NCBI RefSeq assembly: GCF_000622325.1
Contig: NZ_JASE01000005.1
Span: forward strand, 2,480,001-2,544,000
Direction: 5' to 3'
Source of the DNA: Sulfitobacter geojensis
Lineage (GTDB): Bacteria; Pseudomonadota; Alphaproteobacteria; Rhodobacterales; Rhodobacteraceae
Length of the DNA stretch: 64,000 nt
A program made the translations under genes and the position numbers. The notes beneath the pieces were generated by a model that did not search any database, was not told the DNA's origin, and was given only the letters and a program-made list of their open reading frames with translations. Positions 39,624 through 46,976 of this stretch are shown here, one piece after another. Position 1 is the stretch's first letter. Every line of letters begins with the position of its first letter.

Positions 39624-40593
39624 TGATCAGGCTTTCTATCGCTTGGCGTGTTTCTGGCGCGTCCACGATGTCGAGGTGGCCCACGCCATCGACAAGGACA
39701 TATCGCCCTTTGTCCGTGACAGCAGACAAGGTAGGTTCATATTGCGCGGCATCAAATGCCTCGTCGGAGGTGCCTGCAATCAGGGTGAAACGTGGCAGGG
39801 CCGCGACATCTTTCAAATAGTCGCCGCGCGGCGCAAAGCCGGTGTTCAACCGGTAAGAATAGGCCGTTGTCGCCGTGTCGCCCAAGGGGCCGTCAAGCAC
39901 GACTTGCGGCATGCGGAACTGCATGATTGTCAGGTGGTTCAGCGCAGTGATGCGAAATGTGTTCAACATGCTAAGCCCGATGATCCGGCGCAGCAGCGGA
40001 TGCGCCCAGCCGCCCGCGTTCGGGCGCATGGTCGGGGCGTTATGTTTGAGAAAAGGTGCCATCAGCACGGCGCCATCCAACATCGTACCATGCGCCCCAC
40101 CGGCAAACCTGATTGCCAATCCGCCCCCCGATGAATGCCCCGCCAGCACGACCTTTTGATCCGGTTTCGCCGTGGCCGTGATCAGATCGGCCAGATCGTC
40201 TTCGAACTGGTTGATGTAATTGATATCGCCGCGCCGTCCGGGTGTTGTGCCATGGCCGCGCAAGTCGGGAACGACAACATCAGCCGATGCCGCCAGATCG
40301 CGCGCCAATGCATCAAATTGCAACCCGTGCCAGCCGGACCCGTGGACCAACACCAGCAATGGCGCATCCGCCGCCTGCCCCGCATAACGGCGCACCTGCA
40401 ACGGGTAACCGTCGCGCATCGTCACTTGGGTCAAGGGCTGCGGTGCCGGCCCCGCTGCCGCAAGCGTGTTGGTGAAATCGAGCCCCTCACCGGGCGGCAA
40501 AGCGGCAGGGCGTTGCGACAGGATCAGAACAAGCGCGATGCCCAAGGTGATCACAAGCGACGAAACGAGAAAAGTCAGCACCTTGCGGATCAT
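39613..40593 (-). CDS. Membrane-anchored alpha/beta hydrolase
   Basis: 326 residues. An N-terminal membrane anchor (IRKVLTFLVSSLVITLGIALVLILS) precedes a hydrolase domain with LVLVHGSGWHGLQF (oxyanion), VVLAGHSSGGGLAI (nucleophile Ser), and a late GVGHLDIVD (catalytic His), plus GTSDEAFD for the acid. It is probably periplasm-facing, acting on lipids or esters; monoacylglycerol-lipase-like proteins share the pattern. The ATG at 40593 overlaps the cimA stop as ATGA. Confidence 0.85.
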   Translation of the reverse strand: MIRKVLTFLVSSLVITLGIALVLILSQRPAALPPGEGLDFTNTLAAAGPAPQPLTQVTMRDGYPLQVRRYAGQAADAPLLVLVHGSGWHGLQFDALARDLAASADVVVPDLRGHGTTPGRRGDINYINQFEDDLADLITATAKPDQKVVLAGHSSGGGLAIRFAGGAHGTMLDGAVLMAPFLKHNAPTMRPNAGGWAHPLLRRIIGLSMLNTFRITALNHLTIMQFRMPQVVLDGPLGDTATTAYSYRLNTGFAPRGDYLKDVAALPRFTLIAGTSDEAFDAAQYEPTLSAVTDKGRYVLVDGVGHLDIVDAPETRQAIESLINDL

Positions 40594-42212
40594 CCTTCGG
40601 GCTCTTTCATATCGCGGATCAATTTCCAGCGGATCGCGTCGAGCAAAGCTTCGAAACTCGCGTCTATTATGTTCGCACTGACGCCGACCGTGGACCAACG
40701 CTGCCCCTGTCCGTCCTCGCTGTCGATGGTCACACGGGTCACCGCTTCGGTACCGCCTTGGGTGATACGCACCTTGAAATCGACCAACCGCATGTCTTCG
40801 ATCAAGGCAGAATACTGCCCGAGATCCTTGGCCAAGGCCTTGGCCAGCGCGTTAACAGGGCCACGGTCGCTGCCCGCCTCGTCCATGCTTTCGCTGACGG
40901 ACTGGCGTTTCTCGCCGTCGACTTTGACCACCACAACCGCTTCGGACAGGCTGACCATCTTGTCGTATTTGTTTTTGCGCCGCTCGACAGTGACACGGTA
41001 TCTTTTCACCTCGAACAGTTCGGGCAGTTGCCCCAGAACGCCGCGCGCCAGCAATTCGAAACTGGCCTGTGCGGTGTCATAGGCATAGCCCTCGGATTCT
41101 CGCGCCTTGACCTCTTCAAGAATGCGCCCCAATGCCGGATCGCCCTTGGCCACATCCAGCCCCGCCGCGGTCAGGCGTTTGCGCAGGTTGGATTGACCCG
41201 CCTGATTGGACATCGGGATGATCCGCGCATTGCCGACCAGCGCAGGGTCGATATGTTCATAAGTGGTGGGATCTTTGGCGATGGCGCTGGCATGCAGCCC
41301 CGCCTTATGGGCAAAGGCCGACGCCCCGACAAAACCCGCCTGTTTGCGTGGCACACGGTTCAGGATTTCATCCAACATCCGGCTGGTGCGCGTCAGCCCC
41401 TTCAGCGCCTTTTCAGGAATCCCCGTTTCATAGAGGCTCGCATAGGGTTCTTTCAGCAGCAGGATCGGAATGATCGCCGTGAGATTGGCATTGCCACAAC
41501 GTTCGCCAAGCCCGTTCAACGTCCCTTGAATCTGGCGCGCGCCTGCGTCGACTGCGGCCAGCGTGCAAGCCACGGCATTTTCCGTGTCGTCATGGGTATG
41601 AATGCCAAGGTGATCACCGGGGATGCCCGCCGCAATCACTTCGGAGGTGATCTTGCCGATCTCCGCCGGCAGCGTGCCGCCATTGGTATCGCAAAGCACG
41701 ATCCAGCGGGCACCGGCATCATGGACGGTTTTCAGGCATTCCAGCGCGTAATCTGGATTAGACTTATACCCGTCGAAAAAGTGTTCCGCATCAAACAGCG
41801 CTTCGCGCCCCGAGGCAACCAGATGCGCGACGCTATCGCGCAGCAGGACTAGGTTTTCCTCCAGCGTGATGCCAAGGGCTTTGGTGACGTGGAATTCATG
41901 GGTCTTGCCGACGATGCAGACCGATTTCGTACCCGCGTTCAGCACGGCGGCCAGCACATCGTCATTCTGCGCTGAAATACCGGGGCGTTTGGTCATGCCA
42001 AAGGCGGTCAGCTTGGCACGGGTTTGCGGGGCAGTGTCGAAAAAGGCGTTGTCGGTGGGATTGGCACCGGGCCAGCCGCCCTCGATATAATCCAAGCCAA
42101 GGGCATCGAGCGCATGGGCGATCTGGTGTTTTTCGTCGGTTGAGAATTGCACGCCTTGGGTTTGCTGCCCGTCGCGCAGGGTGGTGTCATAGAGGGAGAG
42201 GCGTTGTTTCAT
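40590..42212 (-). CDS. cimA: (R)-Citramalate synthase
   Basis: A 540-residue acyltransferase of the HMGL/isopropylmalate synthase family that makes citramalate from pyruvate and acetyl-CoA, opening the threonine-independent route to isoleucine. YDTTLRDGQQTQGVQFSTDEK is the substrate/metal loop, LCDTNGGTLPAEI and HTHDDTENAVACTLAAVDAGARQIQGTLNGLGERCGN follow, with a C-terminal LeuA-type regulatory domain. The phrase LDYIEGGWPGANPTD fits the TIGR00977 citramalate/2-oxo group rather than LeuA. Feedback regulation by isoleucine is known for the family. Confidence 0.87.
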   Translation of the reverse strand: MKQRLSLYDTTLRDGQQTQGVQFSTDEKHQIAHALDALGLDYIEGGWPGANPTDNAFFDTAPQTRAKLTAFGMTKRPGISAQNDDVLAAVLNAGTKSVCIVGKTHEFHVTKALGITLEENLVLLRDSVAHLVASGREALFDAEHFFDGYKSNPDYALECLKTVHDAGARWIVLCDTNGGTLPAEIGKITSEVIAAGIPGDHLGIHTHDDTENAVACTLAAVDAGARQIQGTLNGLGERCGNANLTAIIPILLLKEPYASLYETGIPEKALKGLTRTSRMLDEILNRVPRKQAGFVGASAFAHKAGLHASAIAKDPTTYEHIDPALVGNARIIPMSNQAGQSNLRKRLTAAGLDVAKGDPALGRILEEVKARESEGYAYDTAQASFELLARGVLGQLPELFEVKRYRVTVERRKNKYDKMVSLSEAVVVVKVDGEKRQSVSESMDEAGSDRGPVNALAKALAKDLGQYSALIEDMRLVDFKVRITQGGTEAVTRVTIDSEDGQGQRWSTVGVSANIIDASFEALLDAIRWKLIRDMKEPEG

Positions 42213-42344: not shown

Positions 42345-43763
42345 TCACAACACCCCCTCCAGCGCCGCACGGTCAAATCCTGCAGGTGCGGTCAGCTTCA
42401 CGCCATCCTTACTCATCTGCACTTCGATGCCTACAGCAATCAGGGCCGATTTGATCCGGTCCACTTCGGAAAAGTCCTTGGTTTCCATCGCCGTAGTGCG
42501 CGCATCACTCAGGAAAGCTTCGACGTCCAAGAGGTCAAAGGCCTGCTCGACGGCCCAATCGGGGATCTTCTGATCCAGCAAACCCAGCAACGACAAGGCC
42601 GCGCGTAGGCCTGCGGTATCGTTCTGGGTACTTAACCGGTGGCATTCTGTCAGCACGCCATGGGTGTTCAGGTCATCCCCTAGCAGCGCCAGCACCGCAT
42701 CGGGGGCCGTTCCGGTGTCCAAGCCTGCCACCTGCGTATACCACTTGCGCAGCGTCTTCTCCGCCTCGGCCCGTTTCTTATCCGTCCAGTCCATCGGCTT
42801 ACGGTAATGCGTGCTCAGCATCACAAAACGGATCACCTCCCCCGGCACGCCCTGTTCCAGCAAATCGCGTACGGTAAAGAAGTTGCCCAAGGACTTGGAC
42901 ATCTTCTTGCCCTCGACCTGCAACATTTCGTTGTGCATCCAGACGTTCGCGAACCCGTGACCGGCGCATTTTGACTGGGCAATCTCGTTCTCGTGGTGGG
43001 GAAACTGCAAATCATTGCCGCCGCCGTGGATGTCAAAACTTTCGCCCAGCAGCTCATGCGCCATGGCAGAGCATTCGATGTGCCAACCGGGCCGCCCGCG
43101 TCCCCAAGGCGACTCCCATCCGGGCAGATCATCGGGCGAGGGTTTCCACAGCACGAAATCCATCGGATTGCGTTTATAGGGTGCAACCTCAACCCGCGCA
43201 CCGGCAATCATGTCATCGACCGAACGGCCCGACAGTGCGCCATATTCCTTGTAACTCTCCACCGCGAACAGTGCATGGCCTTCGGCGGCATAGGCATGGC
43301 CCGATGCAATCAGGCCCTCGATCATTGCGATCATCTGGCCGATGAACGCGGTCGCGCGCGGTTCATGATCAGGGCGCAAGGCCCCCAAGGCATCCATGTC
43401 CTGATGATACCAATCAATGGTTTCATCCGCACGCTCTGCGATCAGCTCTTCCAATGTGCCGTCCGCACCCGCCGCCCTGCGCTTTTGCGCGGTTTCGTTG
43501 ATGCGGTCATCCACGTCGGTGAAATTGCGCACATAGGTGACGTGATCATCGCCATAAACATGGCGCAGCAGGCGGTTCAGCACGTCAAACACAATCACGG
43601 GGCGCGCATTGCCAAGGTGGGCACGGTCATAAACCGTCGGCCCGCAGACATACATGCGCACATCATCCGCCTTGATCGGCTCGAAAACCTCCTTTCGGCG
43701 GGTTTTCGTGTTATACAGTTTGATCTCGGTCTTGATCGTACCGGTCCCGTTTGTCGTGCTCAT
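42345..43763 (-). CDS. cysS: Cysteinyl-tRNA synthetase
   Basis: A 472-residue class I enzyme that charges tRNA-Cys. Cys40 in [17 protein letters not shown] starts the zinc site and contains the HIGH-type HLGN (49-52); [10 protein letters not shown] and [19 protein letters not shown] supply the other zinc ligands; [10 protein letters not shown] is the second signature. The ATG at 43763 has GAGGAA upstream. Upstream lies a 14-codon cysteine-rich frame (43850-43894) that may regulate it by cysteine supply. A REP-like repeat follows the gene. Confidence 0.96.
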
Positions 43764-43770
43764 AGCGTCT

Positions 43771-43842
43771 TCCTCGCGCAGCGGTCACGCGGGCTTGCCA
43801 CATATCTTAAGAAAACGAAACGACATGATAACAACCCGCGAG
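43771..43842 (-). promoter_or_regulatory. Candidate attenuator structure between the Cys-rich leader and cysS
   Basis: On the minus strand, CTCGCGGG (43842 to 43835) lies seven bases after the leader-peptide stop. It can pair with CGCGAGGA (43778 to 43771), which contains the cysS ribosome-binding site, through CTCGCG/CGCGAG; or with AAGCCCGCG (43796 to 43788) through CGCGGG/CCCGCG. The two pairings exclude each other. A ribosome halted on the last cysteine codon or stop would cover the first segment and free the cysS site. Confidence 0.45.
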
Positions 43843-43849
43843 AATAATC

Positions 43850-43894
43850 TCAGCAGGTAATGGTGCAGCAAATAATGCAGGTCATCATATTCAT
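43850..43894 (-). CDS. Candidate cysteine-rich leader peptide upstream of cysS
   Basis: A 14-codon frame encoding MNMMTCIICCTITC, with four TGC cysteine codons, the last immediately before a TGA stop. It lies 86 bases upstream of the cysS start on the same strand. There is no ribosome-binding site, but a promoter-like pair (TTGACC at 43926-43931, 17 bases, CTAACC at 43903-43908) would start transcription at or within a few bases of the ATG, so translation may be leaderless. Cysteine-rich leaders that control cysteine genes by ribosome stalling are known elsewhere (polycysteine uORFs in mycobacteria). No homologue was searched for. Confidence 0.5.
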   Translation of the reverse strand: MNMMTCIICCTITC

Positions 43895-43902
43895 GTCAAA
43901 AG

Positions 43903-43931
43903 GGTTAGCCGATGGGCCGTCTTGCGGTCAA
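43903..43931 (-). promoter_or_regulatory. Candidate promoter for the cysS leader
   Basis: TTGACC, 17-base spacer, CTAACC; the -10 is a weak match but spacing is ideal and the leader ATG begins nine bases after it. Confidence 0.4.
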
Positions 43932-43993
43932 CAGTTGATTGACAAATCAGATGGCCTCTGCGCCCCTGCGCCCAGAAACAGAAAGGGCGCATC

Positions 43994-45172
43994 ATGCAGG
44001 CATCACAGCGGATATCAGGGATTCTCGGCGGCGGTTCAGACGGCTGGGACGTGTTCAACAAAGCGCGCGAGATGATTGACGCGGGCACGCCGGTGACCGA
44101 GCTGACAATTGGTGAACATGACATCCGCACCGCTGCCCCGATCCTGCAAGACATGCACCGCGCCGCACTGGCAGGGCACACCGGCTACGCCTCTATCCCC
44201 GGTGTGGCTGCACTGCGCCGCGAAGTTGCGCAGCGCGTGCAGGAGCGCACCGGCGTCCCGACAACATCCGAAAATGTGATGATCACACCGGGCGGGCAAT
44301 CCGCGCTGTTTGCCGCGCATATTGCCACTTGTGACGCGGGCGATACCGCACTTTATCTTGATCCGTTCTATGCCACCTACCCCGGCACCATTCGCGGCGC
44401 GGGTGCGACGCCCCTGTGCATCCAGACCCATGCCGAAGATGCGTTTCAACCCCGTGCGAGCGACATTGCGGCACACGCCAAGGGGGCCAAGTCACTGCTG
44501 ATCAACACGCCGAACAACCCCACCGGTGTGGTGTATTCGCGCGCCACACTGGACGGCATTGCACAGGTCTGTCGTGAAGAAGACCTCTGGCTGATCTCGG
44601 ACGAAGTGTATGACACGCAGGTCTGGGAGGGCGAACACATCAGCCCGCGCGCGCTGGATGGCATGGCCGAGCGCACACTGGTTGTTGGCTCAATGTCGAA
44701 ATCTCACGCGATGACCGGTTCGCGTATCGGCTGGGTGGTCGGACCACGTGACATCATCGACCATCTGATCAATCTCGCCACGCATACCACCTATGGCGTG
44801 CCCGGTTTCATTCAGGACGCGGCGCTTTTCGCGCTACAGCTTGGTGAAGAGTTCGAGGTCGAAATCGCAGCCCCCTTCCGCCGCCGTCGCGATATTGCGC
44901 ATAAGGTTCTTGCCGGCCAGAACGCCGTCAGCTTGGTGCCCGCGCAGGGGGCGATGTATCTGATGCTGGACGTGCGCAGCACCGGCATGACGGGCGAAGC
45001 CTTCGCCTTTGCCCTGCTGGAGGCCCACCAGATTGCCGTGATGCCGGGCGAAAGCTTTGGCACGGCGGCGGCGGGTCATGTGCGGGTGGCCATGACCATT
45101 GAAGACATTGCTTTTGAAGCGGCACTCAAGACCCTGTGCAGCTTTGCGCAGAGCTGCCAGAACGACGCCTGA
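43994..45172 (+). CDS. Pyridoxal-phosphate aminotransferase (class I/II, AspC-like)
   Basis: A 392-residue fold-type I enzyme. LINTPNNPTGVVYSRATLDGI, LISDEVYDTQVW and the PLP lysine in SMSKSHAMTGSRIGWVVGP are all present, as is VRVAMTIEDI near the C-terminus. The exact amino donor is unclear; aromatic or aspartate transamination is usual. It is divergent from cysS with 230 bases between them and reads toward the MttB-like gene. Confidence 0.88.
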   Translation: MQASQRISGILGGGSDGWDVFNKAREMIDAGTPVTELTIGEHDIRTAAPILQDMHRAALAGHTGYASIPGVAALRREVAQRVQERTGVPTTSENVMITPGGQSALFAAHIATCDAGDTALYLDPFYATYPGTIRGAGATPLCIQTHAEDAFQPRASDIAAHAKGAKSLLINTPNNPTGVVYSRATLDGIAQVCREEDLWLISDEVYDTQVWEGEHISPRALDGMAERTLVVGSMSKSHAMTGSRIGWVVGPRDIIDHLINLATHTTYGVPGFIQDAALFALQLGEEFEVEIAAPFRRRRDIAHKVLAGQNAVSLVPAQGAMYLMLDVRSTGMTGEAFAFALLEAHQIAVMPGESFGTAAAGHVRVAMTIEDIAFEAALKTLCSFAQSCQNDA

Positions 45173-45437
45173 CGGCATTAAGAACCACTGTTTGCGGCGC
45201 AAATCATGCTGCACCTGCACGGGTCGCAAACAGACAGTCACGGCGTAAATAGGACAGAAATACCGGTTTTGACTGCACAAGCTGGTCCCCAAAGGGGCCG
45301 GCACATGCGCATGGACGTTTGTATCATCACTCGGGTCTGCCGCACCATCGGTGCGGTGCGCGGGCGTGCGGCACGGGGGGCGCCGCGGGACGGTTGACCG
45401 CCCCTGCCCTGTTCCTTTTATCAACCGGATACCCCTT
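45173..45437 (+). promoter_or_regulatory. Regulatory-looking gap upstream of the MttB-like gene
   Basis: Two related direct repeats lie here: GTCGCAAACAGACAG (45223-45237) and GGCGTAAATAGGACAG (45242-45257), 12 of 15 aligned bases alike and about two helical turns apart, as in AraC/GlxA-type operators. A further partial copy (GGCGCAAA, 45196-45203) lies upstream. A GC-rich hairpin (CCGCACC, ATC, GGTGCGG, 45340-45356) lies nearer the start. No gene seen. Confidence 0.45.
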
Positions 45438-46976
45438 ATGACCGATCAAACTCCCCTTCGCAGCGGTGGCCGCGCTGCCCGCCGTGCTGCCCGTTCCCAA
45501 CCCCTCGCCGCGCACCTGCGCCCCGTCCGCCCCGGTATGGAGGGCGGCCAGTACAAACCGCTGAGCCAAGCCGACATGCAAGCCATCCATAACGCTGCGC
45601 TTGAGGCCCTTGAAACCATCGGGCTGGCAGACGCGCCGCCTTCCGGTGTTGCCTATCTGACCGGTGCCGGTGCGGTTGAGGGCACGGATGGGCGCATCCG
45701 TTTTCCCCGCGCTCTGGTCGAGGACACTCTGGCAAAGGCGAACCGGTCGATCACCCTGTGCGCGCGCGACCCTGCCCATGATCTGGAACTGTCCGGCAAC
45801 CGTGTGCATTACGGCACCGCAGGTGCGGCGGTGCATCTGGTCGATGTGGCGACCAACAGCTACCGCGAATGTGGTTTGCAGGATTTGCACGATGCAGCGC
45901 GGATCACGGATACGCTTGATAACATTCACTTTTTACAGCGCCCGATGGTTTGCCGCGACATTACAGACAATTACGAAATGGACATGAATACGGTCTACGG
46001 CTGCTGTTCAGGCACGATGAAACATATCGGCACCTCCTTTACCGATCCGTCTTACGTCAAGGGCGCACTTGAGATGCTACACCTGATTGCCGGCGGCGAG
46101 GACAAATGGCGCGCGCGTCCCTTCATGTCGAACTCGAACTGTTTTGTGGTCCCGCCGATGAAATTCGCCACCGAGTCCTGTCAGGTGATGGAGGCTTGTA
46201 TCGAAGGGGGCATGCCGGTGCTGCTGCTGTCCGCGGGCATGGCCGGTGCCACAGCACCGTCCACCATCGCAGGCGCGATCACGCAGGCGGTGGCGGAATG
46301 TCTGGCCGGACTGGTCTATGTGAACGCGGTCAAGCCGGGGCACCCGGCCATCTTCGGCACATGGCCCTTCGGGCTTGATCTGCGCTCGGGCGCGATGACG
46401 GGCGGCTCCGGCGAACAGGCACTGTTGACGGCCGGCTGCGCACAGATGCACGGGTTTTACGCCCTGCCCGGTGGTGCCGCTGGCGGTATTGCCGACGCTA
46501 AAATGCCCGATATGCAAGCCGGATGGGAGCAGATGTGTTCCAACGTCATGGCCGGCCTGTCGGGGTGCAATATGATTTACGAGGCGGCGGGTATGCATGC
46601 ATCGTTACTGGGGTTTTGCCACGAATCGCTGATTTTGGGGGATGATATTATCGGTCAGGCCCTACGCTGCGTGCGCGGCATCGAGGTAAACGAGGAAACG
46701 CTGGCTCTGGATCAGATGCGCGCGGTCTGTCTGGATGGACCGGGGCATTATCTGGGGACCGAACAAACCCTGAGCCGGATGGAACTGGATCACGTCTATC
46801 CATCGCTGGGAAACCGGTCATCTCCGAAAGAATGGGATGAACTGGGCAAGCCGGAACTGGTCGCCAATGCGACACTGCGCAAAGAGGCGATATTGGCGCA
46901 ACGCCCGCGGGCACGGTTTGACCCGGCCATCGATCAGGCGATCCGCGAGCGGTTCAAAATTCACTTGCCTGTCTGA
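45438..46976 (+). CDS. Trimethylamine methyltransferase (MttB) family protein, non-pyrrolysine
   Basis: A 512-residue member of the MttB superfamily. There is no in-frame TAG, so it is the non-pyrrolysine branch, some members of which demethylate glycine betaine or related quaternary amines onto a corrinoid protein. The TIM-barrel family text is seen in SNSNCFVVPPMKFATESCQVMEACIEGGMPVLLLSAGMAGATAPSTIAGAITQAVAECLAGLVYVN and in GGAAGGIADAKMPDMQAGWE. The N-terminus is basic (GRAARRAARSQP). ATG at 45438. No corrinoid protein or methyl-THF transferase gene is adjacent, so its partner must be elsewhere or it has another role. Confidence 0.87.
   Translation: MTDQTPLRSGGRAARRAARSQPLAAHLRPVRPGMEGGQYKPLSQADMQAIHNAALEALETIGLADAPPSGVAYLTGAGAVEGTDGRIRFPRALVEDTLAKANRSITLCARDPAHDLELSGNRVHYGTAGAAVHLVDVATNSYRECGLQDLHDAARITDTLDNIHFLQRPMVCRDITDNYEMDMNTVYGCCSGTMKHIGTSFTDPSYVKGALEMLHLIAGGEDKWRARPFMSNSNCFVVPPMKFATESCQVMEACIEGGMPVLLLSAGMAGATAPSTIAGAITQAVAECLAGLVYVNAVKPGHPAIFGTWPFGLDLRSGAMTGGSGEQALLTAGCAQMHGFYALPGGAAGGIADAKMPDMQAGWEQMCSNVMAGLSGCNMIYEAAGMHASLLGFCHESLILGDDIIGQALRCVRGIEVNEETLALDQMRAVCLDGPGHYLGTEQTLSRMELDHVYPSLGNRSSPKEWDELGKPELVANATLRKEAILAQRPRARFDPAIDQAIRERFKIHLPV

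Follow-up and report, generated by a model that had tools for sequence, protein, structure and literature searches.

A conserved leader frame upstream of cysS in Rhodobacterales, likely an attenuator sensing charged Cys-tRNA, with related leaders in Hyphomicrobiales

The short reading frame preceding cysS in the window (the whole stretch of 64,000 nucleotides analysed here) is conserved and is not a product of chance. It very likely represents a ribosome-mediated attenuator, which senses charged Cys-tRNA through the stalling of the ribosome translating the leader. A leader of the same kind, before the same gene and in the same order, is already predicted in print as uORFC-8-2 (passages of PMC8632094 on this motif); the belief of the original prediction that no cysS leader had been described for this group is thus superseded. 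The new features are a probable leaderless start, a covarying helix between the leader start and the tract behind the switch segment, the same layout in Rhizobium, Ensifer, Mesorhizobium, Bosea, and Bradyrhizobium, and the presence of cimA, co-directional and behind cysS, in 42 of 42 leader-bearing Rhodobacterales loci with enough flank. Control of cysteine--tRNA ligase through a leader that reads Cys would amount to simple feedback across a large group of bacteria. The map of its segments (leader start, leader tail, A, U, and B) makes the switch testable by a few point changes, and the plan shared with relatives in Rhizobium, Ensifer, Mesorhizobium, and Bradyrhizobium extends it to genetically tractable species.

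The leader encodes MNMMTCIICCTITC in 14 codons (DNA ATGAATATGATGACCTGCATTATTTGCTGCACCATTACCTGCTGA), from the ATG at 43894 to the TGA at 43852-43850 (Table 1). It contains four TGC codons, the final one adjoining the stop, with a tandem TGC TGC at codons 9-10, and 86 bases separate the stop from the cysS ATG (43763), while the gap between cysS and cimA comprises 132 bases. The coordinates that the original prediction had given for the leader, its four TGC codons, the 86-base gap, the segment CTCGCGGG beginning seven bases past the stop (43842-43835), the motif CCCGCG, and the promoter boxes all hold. The motif CGCGAG at the cysS ribosome-binding site is likewise present, its real range being 43778-43773 and that claimed, 43771-43778, two bases wider. 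Comparison of the leader region with Rfam 15 gave no match to the T-box or to any other family described there, either at gathering level or at E <= 1 in 43700-44000.

Table 1. Coordinates of the genes, leader, promoter, and RNA segments at the cysS locus of the window
Feature	Coordinates	Strand	Remarks
cimA, citramalate synthase (isoleucine pathway)	40590..42212	-	TIGR00977, 595 bits; co-directional, 3' of cysS
cysS, cysteine--tRNA ligase	42345..43763	-	NCBIfam TIGR00435, 409.5 bits, above cut-off; PF01406
Possible weak hairpin B:C (CGCGTG / TGCGCG)	43775..43791	-	Ends beside ribosome-binding site AGGA 43774-43771
B (CCCGCG), alternative partner of A	43788..43793	-	Covarying A:B pairing
U-rich tract CGTTTCGTTTTCTTAA	43807..43822	-	Possible termination site; also complementary to cysS ribosome-binding site
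U (GTTATCATGT), 3' arm of P1	43823..43832	-	Pairs with L5
Switch segment A (CGCGGGT)	43834..43840	-	Pairs with LT or with B; core GCGGG nearly invariant
LT (ACCTGC), final two codons of the leader; forms the 5' arm of P2	43853..43858	-	Pairs with 43839-43834
L5 (ATATGATGAC), 5' arm of helix P1	43881..43890	-	Pairs with 43832-43823 (ten pairs); Z -11.6 to -13.9 vs swapped arms
Leader ORF MNMMTCIICCTITC	43850..43894	-	Kept in 142/162 Rhodobacterales; probable transcription start on A of ATG (43894), from promoter register
Promoter of leader	43903..43931	-	-35 TTGACC 43931-43926, 17-base spacer, -10 CTAACC 43908-43903; register kept in 143 relatives

Upstream regions of cysS were gathered from family, class, and named genomes, the counts for Rhodobacterales being based on the 162 regions in which the cysS start could be located. 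Of these, 142 hold a short frame that opens with ATG and is rich in Cys, Ile, and Thr, against a mean count of 0.3 for first-order Markov sequences and of one for the antisense strand. Since the sampled genomes are almost all of different genera, this signal does not arise from a few close copies. About 20 of the 162 loci carry no recognisable leader (L011, L027, L057, L064, L181, L182, L206, and others). Matches of the VENCTPCVCCPSRSVVS type were discarded, as they are antisense of cimA, which lies downstream of cysS, and not leaders. Among 143 relatives, the leader is mostly 13-14 codons long and mostly ends in TGA, and its Cys codons are TGC (387) or TGT (36). The alignment of Rhodobacterales that the original prediction had proposed as a check shows these codons to be conserved, Cys occupying position -5 relative to the stop in 111 of the 143 and position -4 in 95; the upstream Cys of the leader is absent from most relatives, the tandem Cys near the stop alone being consistently kept. 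A covariance model (R1), built from 46 aligned members, detected a single significant copy in the genome of the window (E 4.7e-18; next best 0.42), with no further Cys-rich leader reaching significance in that search. Across the family, it matched 245 of 296 genomes. The best 20 family matches listed, compared by eye with the positions of cysS, all lie directly upstream of this gene.

The codons at the end of the leader suggest what is being preserved. The final codon is almost always xxC, whether it specifies Cys, Arg, Gly, or Ala, and the penultimate one is mostly xYC; these bases are kept despite the varying residue, as expected from pairing with segment A. Judging by these patterns, the base pairing seems to be maintained at the leader end rather than the residue, and the tandem Cys seems to be maintained as residue. 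At -3, Ile is encoded by ATT in 128 of 140 relatives and by ATC in 4, against a preference of the cysS genes for ATC over ATT (595:181), which points to a constraint at the level of bases; ATT at -3 also recurs in Hyphomicrobiales leaders.

The promoter of the leader shows a fixed position relative to its ATG. The ATG-aligned profile of 143 relatives peaks over positions -36 to -33 (T 0.80 at -35), -12 (T 0.55), and -11 (A 0.64), and position -1 is a pyrimidine in 97%. Such spacing is what a sigma-70 promoter would show if transcription began on the A of the ATG, suggesting that the leader RNA is probably leaderless, in agreement with the start site that had been proposed from the promoter boxes of the window. 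A second consensus-like promoter (10 of 12) was detected inside the leader at 43899-43872; it would bypass the leader if used, and no conserved counterpart of it appears in the profile of the 143 relatives. Directly 5' of segment B, at 43794-43804 (-), lies a GAAGTTGCTAAG-like stretch that is kept in most relatives and resembles an extended -10 element; no pairing partner was found for it in the window or in the relatives.

From 5' to 3', the RNA segments are L5 (at the leader start), LT (at the leader tail), A, U, and B, followed by the cysS ribosome-binding site. The core of A (GCGGG) lies 7-11 bases past the leader stop in most relatives, U lies directly behind A, and the core of B (CCCGC) follows about 43 bases after A. 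Pairings were evaluated by comparing the arms of each sequence with arms swapped between sequences (Z). Besides P1 (L5:U), the strongest of these signals in relatives are A:B (Z -7.3 to -8.8), LT:A (-5.9 to -7.7), and B with the stretch before the ribosome-binding site (B:pre-RBS, -4.1 to -5.0), and most other arm combinations gave Z values near zero. In the alignment A2, 90.7% of A:B cells are paired and covariation reaches 0.130, compared with 0.080 in shuffles (0/500). It derives mainly from one column pair (GC 17 / CG 14), which is GC 49 / CG 41 over 134 sequences. For LT:A, 89.6% of cells are paired, with one-sided changes and no two-sided change, since A is nearly invariant, as expected of a segment held by two partners. 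The pairings of A with the leader tail and with B are mutually exclusive. The original prediction had also proposed exclusive pairings of CTCGCGGG, and one of its two partners, CCCGCG, is borne out (Z -7 to -9, covarying). The other, the cysS ribosome-binding site, did not exceed chance in the relatives (Z +1.0 to +1.4), and pairing of A with this site was dropped as the switch. RNAalifold returned no structure for 61 deliberately divergent sequences, because the pairing arms shift register, and was replaced by the arm-swapping test and by a cleaner alignment of 46 sequences. An additional GC-rich hairpin between the leader stop and segment A was observed in six loci (L008, L010, L018, L026, L175, and L184), similar to the rare three-stem form mentioned in the passages of PMC8632094 on uORFC-8-2.

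These elements can be combined into a model for the switch. Transcription would start on the leader ATG, and a ribosome would load on the 5' end of the leaderless RNA. With plentiful Cys-tRNA, the leader would be translated to its stop and the RNA would adopt structure I, in which P1 joins the leader start with the tract behind A and P2 joins the leader tail with A, followed by the U-rich tract. Under a shortage of Cys-tRNA, the ribosome would stall on the tandem Cys codons and cover the leader tail, blocking structure I. A would then pair with B instead, forming structure II, and expression of cysS, and probably of cimA 3' of it, would follow. From the conservation of the leader and its codons, the promoter register, the covariation of P1 and A:B, the exclusivity of pairing on A, and the predicted switching, we infer the stalling, the leaderless start, and the direction of regulation. 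As in attenuators of the trp type, a leader ORF whose codons specify the pathway's amino acid is combined with mutually exclusive helices. The original prediction of a Cys attenuator had the correct type of mechanism but erred in one pairing. Its geometry also needs revision: it had the stalled ribosome mask CTCGCGGG, while in the predictions for the window and 128 relatives the footprint would cover the last leader codons instead, freeing CTCGCGGG for CCCGCG.

The switch was examined with thermodynamic predictions, in which co-transcriptional order is ignored. For the window RNA without a ribosome, structure I is predicted (P1 0.86, P2 0.96). A footprint over the leader tail, corresponding to a stall at the tandem Cys, would raise A:B from 0.00 to 0.79-0.91 and would open the ribosome-binding site from 0.22 to 0.78-0.99. 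If the ribosome sits at the leader stop instead, the openness of this site is predicted to stay at 0.24. Over 128 relatives, the stall footprint is predicted to increase A:B by more than 0.3 in 51 and to decrease it in 2, and the openness of the ribosome-binding site changes from 0.42 to 0.49-0.52 (40 up, 16 down). A sister species of the genus (L032) showed no predicted change upon the stall footprint. The modelling thus suggests that the A:B switch is general; exposure of the ribosome-binding site is not generally supported, and the general sequestration that had been expected for this site was found only weakly.

For the output, we tentatively favour premature termination in the U-rich tract, the mechanism put forward for uORFC-8-2, possibly reinforced by access to the ribosome-binding site. 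The tract following P1 has a T-tail score of at least 2.9 in 138 of 140 relatives, compared with 47 of 140 in the upstream control; a scan of the window with a strict terminator pattern found no terminator. The same sensor could alternatively have a translational output only, with structure I closing the cysS ribosome-binding site through the U-rich tract or the hairpin B:C, structure II opening it, and no termination taking place. The position of B argues for this alternative: because B is made later than the U-rich tract, A:B cannot serve as an antiterminator there. The A:B covariation suggests a further, post-transcriptional role of B. The B:pre-RBS pairing, the predicted opening of the site in the window, and the region from B to the ATG, which folds slightly better than shuffles in relatives (mean z -0.55, with controls near 0 and a value of 0 in the window sequence), point the same way. 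However, the mean opening in relatives is small and inconsistent, several Hyphomicrobiales have the cysS start more than 100 bases past the leader stop, and the U-rich tract is conserved, which together make a purely translational output rather unlikely. The leader peptide itself might act instead, as an arrest peptide or as a sensor of thiols or metals, without reporting on the charging of Cys-tRNA. CxxC-like spacing is indeed common (CIIC, CGIC), and the Ile-rich composition is kept in two orders; this reading is nevertheless very improbable, given that the tandem Cys near the stop is consistent and the upstream Cys mostly missing, that position -1 differs between relatives in residue but hardly in bases, and that the gene served is cysteine--tRNA ligase. 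Least credible, with almost no probability, is that the ORF arose by chance in GC-rich intergenic DNA: any sequence contains many short ORFs, but a frequency of 142/162 against 0.3 expected, a fixed promoter register, and covarying helices are not consistent with such an origin.

The neighbourhood of cimA raises the question of a second amino acid. Citramalate synthase is the entry to isoleucine, and the leaders hold more Ile than Cys, with cimA behind cysS, which makes dual sensing conceivable. The leader would then read the supply of Ile (and Thr) in addition to Cys, serving a cysS-cimA unit. Ile is the commonest leader residue (28%, compared with 21% for Cys), codons -5 to -3 almost invariably read CCI, CII, or ICI, and cimA overlaps or abuts cysS in 8 of the 42 leader-bearing Rhodobacterales loci in which it follows this gene. 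However, the leaders of Rhizobium, Ensifer, Mesorhizobium, and Devosia are Ile-rich and yet no cimA was found in the 1.5 kb behind cysS. The predominance of ATT at -3 against the preference of cysS points to a constraint on bases, and of 63 loci with no detected leader, 30 likewise have cimA 3' of cysS. Dual sensing is accordingly considered improbable. A broader scheme is similarly doubtful, in which one leaderless Cys/Ile/Thr peptide would read Cys-tRNA for cysS and Ile-tRNA for cimA, the RNA switch would operate in two orders, and the output would be termination or access to the ribosome-binding site depending on the lineage.

Leaders were also found beyond Rhodobacterales, in 19 of 132 loci drawn from outside this order (including L226, which actually belongs to Rhodobacteraceae), compared with 0.1 in dinucleotide shuffles and none on the antisense strand. 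This leaves up to 18 loci, at the class level or from named genomes, with similar leaders, one or two of which (e.g., L235) may be due to chance. Genera named among them are Rhizobium, Ensifer, Mesorhizobium, Phyllobacterium, Bosea, Bradyrhizobium, Devosia, and Cohaesibacter. In 15 aligned leaders from outside Rhodobacterales, the stop is mostly TAG and is embedded in a stem (GCTAGC / GCTGGC). The tract following this stem pairs with the start of the leader (Z -5.7, 0/300 permutations). P1 and P2 of Hyphomicrobiales jointly covary (0.215 vs 0.136, 0/500). A Hyphomicrobiales-type model (R2) finds cysS leaders in three Rhodobacteraceae genomes outside its training set, with modest E values of 1e-4 to 5e-3. 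It matches in only 9 of 337 class genomes, indicating a patchy distribution. No published report of a cysS leader outside Rhodobacterales was found in the open-access literature.

Comparison with described systems places the leader closest to uORFC-8-2. In the passages of PMC8632094 (RNA Biol 2021) on this motif, it is called exclusive to Rhodobacterales, is represented by 145 examples upstream of cysS, and comprises a conserved AUG, tandem Cys codons, a stem containing them, and a final U-run; ribosome-mediated attenuation is proposed there as a prediction, untested in that work. Neither an experimental test of uORFC-8-2 nor other reports on cysS leaders were found in the open-access literature. 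The leader of the window shares with the motif, as described in these passages, its place upstream of cysS in Rhodobacterales (TIGR00435; its relatives are Rhodobacteraceae) and an AUG-started uORF with tandem Cys codons, mostly UGC. The pair of stems described there, with the Cys codons in the first, and the 3' U-run have counterparts in P1, which encloses the Cys codons, in P2, nested within P1, and in the U-rich tract; the stems may not be the same two. However, the tandem Cys occupies codons 14-15 in these passages and codons 9-10 here. Partner B, the leaderless start, the cimA neighbour, and the members outside Rhodobacterales are reported here and do not feature in the passages of PMC8632094 on uORFC-8-2.

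Two more distant systems also resemble the leader. The polycysteine leaderless short ORFs of mycobacteria (Canestrari 2020, as presented in passages of PMC9031893 and PMC13236596) have contiguous Cys codons and attenuate downstream genes according to Cys supply. The cysS leader likewise has contiguous Cys codons, and the promoter register in 143 relatives suggests a leaderless start. The mycobacterial ORFs belong to another phylum, serve cysteine biosynthesis genes, and exert a control described in those passages as translational. In Sinorhizobium meliloti, trpL/rnTrpL is a 14-codon leader whose RNA begins with its AUG and whose translation is documented by Ribo-seq (PMC7298713, PMC10117765). 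The leader of the window is similarly alphaproteobacterial, 14 codons long, and probably begins its RNA with the AUG. However, trpL/rnTrpL senses Trp before trpE, employs a transcription terminator, and yields an attenuator RNA and a peptide that also act in trans (PMC7298713, PMC10117765).

Elsewhere in the window, the Rfam family PYLIS_3 (pyrrolysine insertion element) scored above cut-off at 46488-46587 (+), within a gene of the MttB family (45351-46976, PF06253). The reading frame of this gene has no TAG, and it is probably a non-pyrrolysine MttB homologue, so the PYLIS_3 match is likely not functional.
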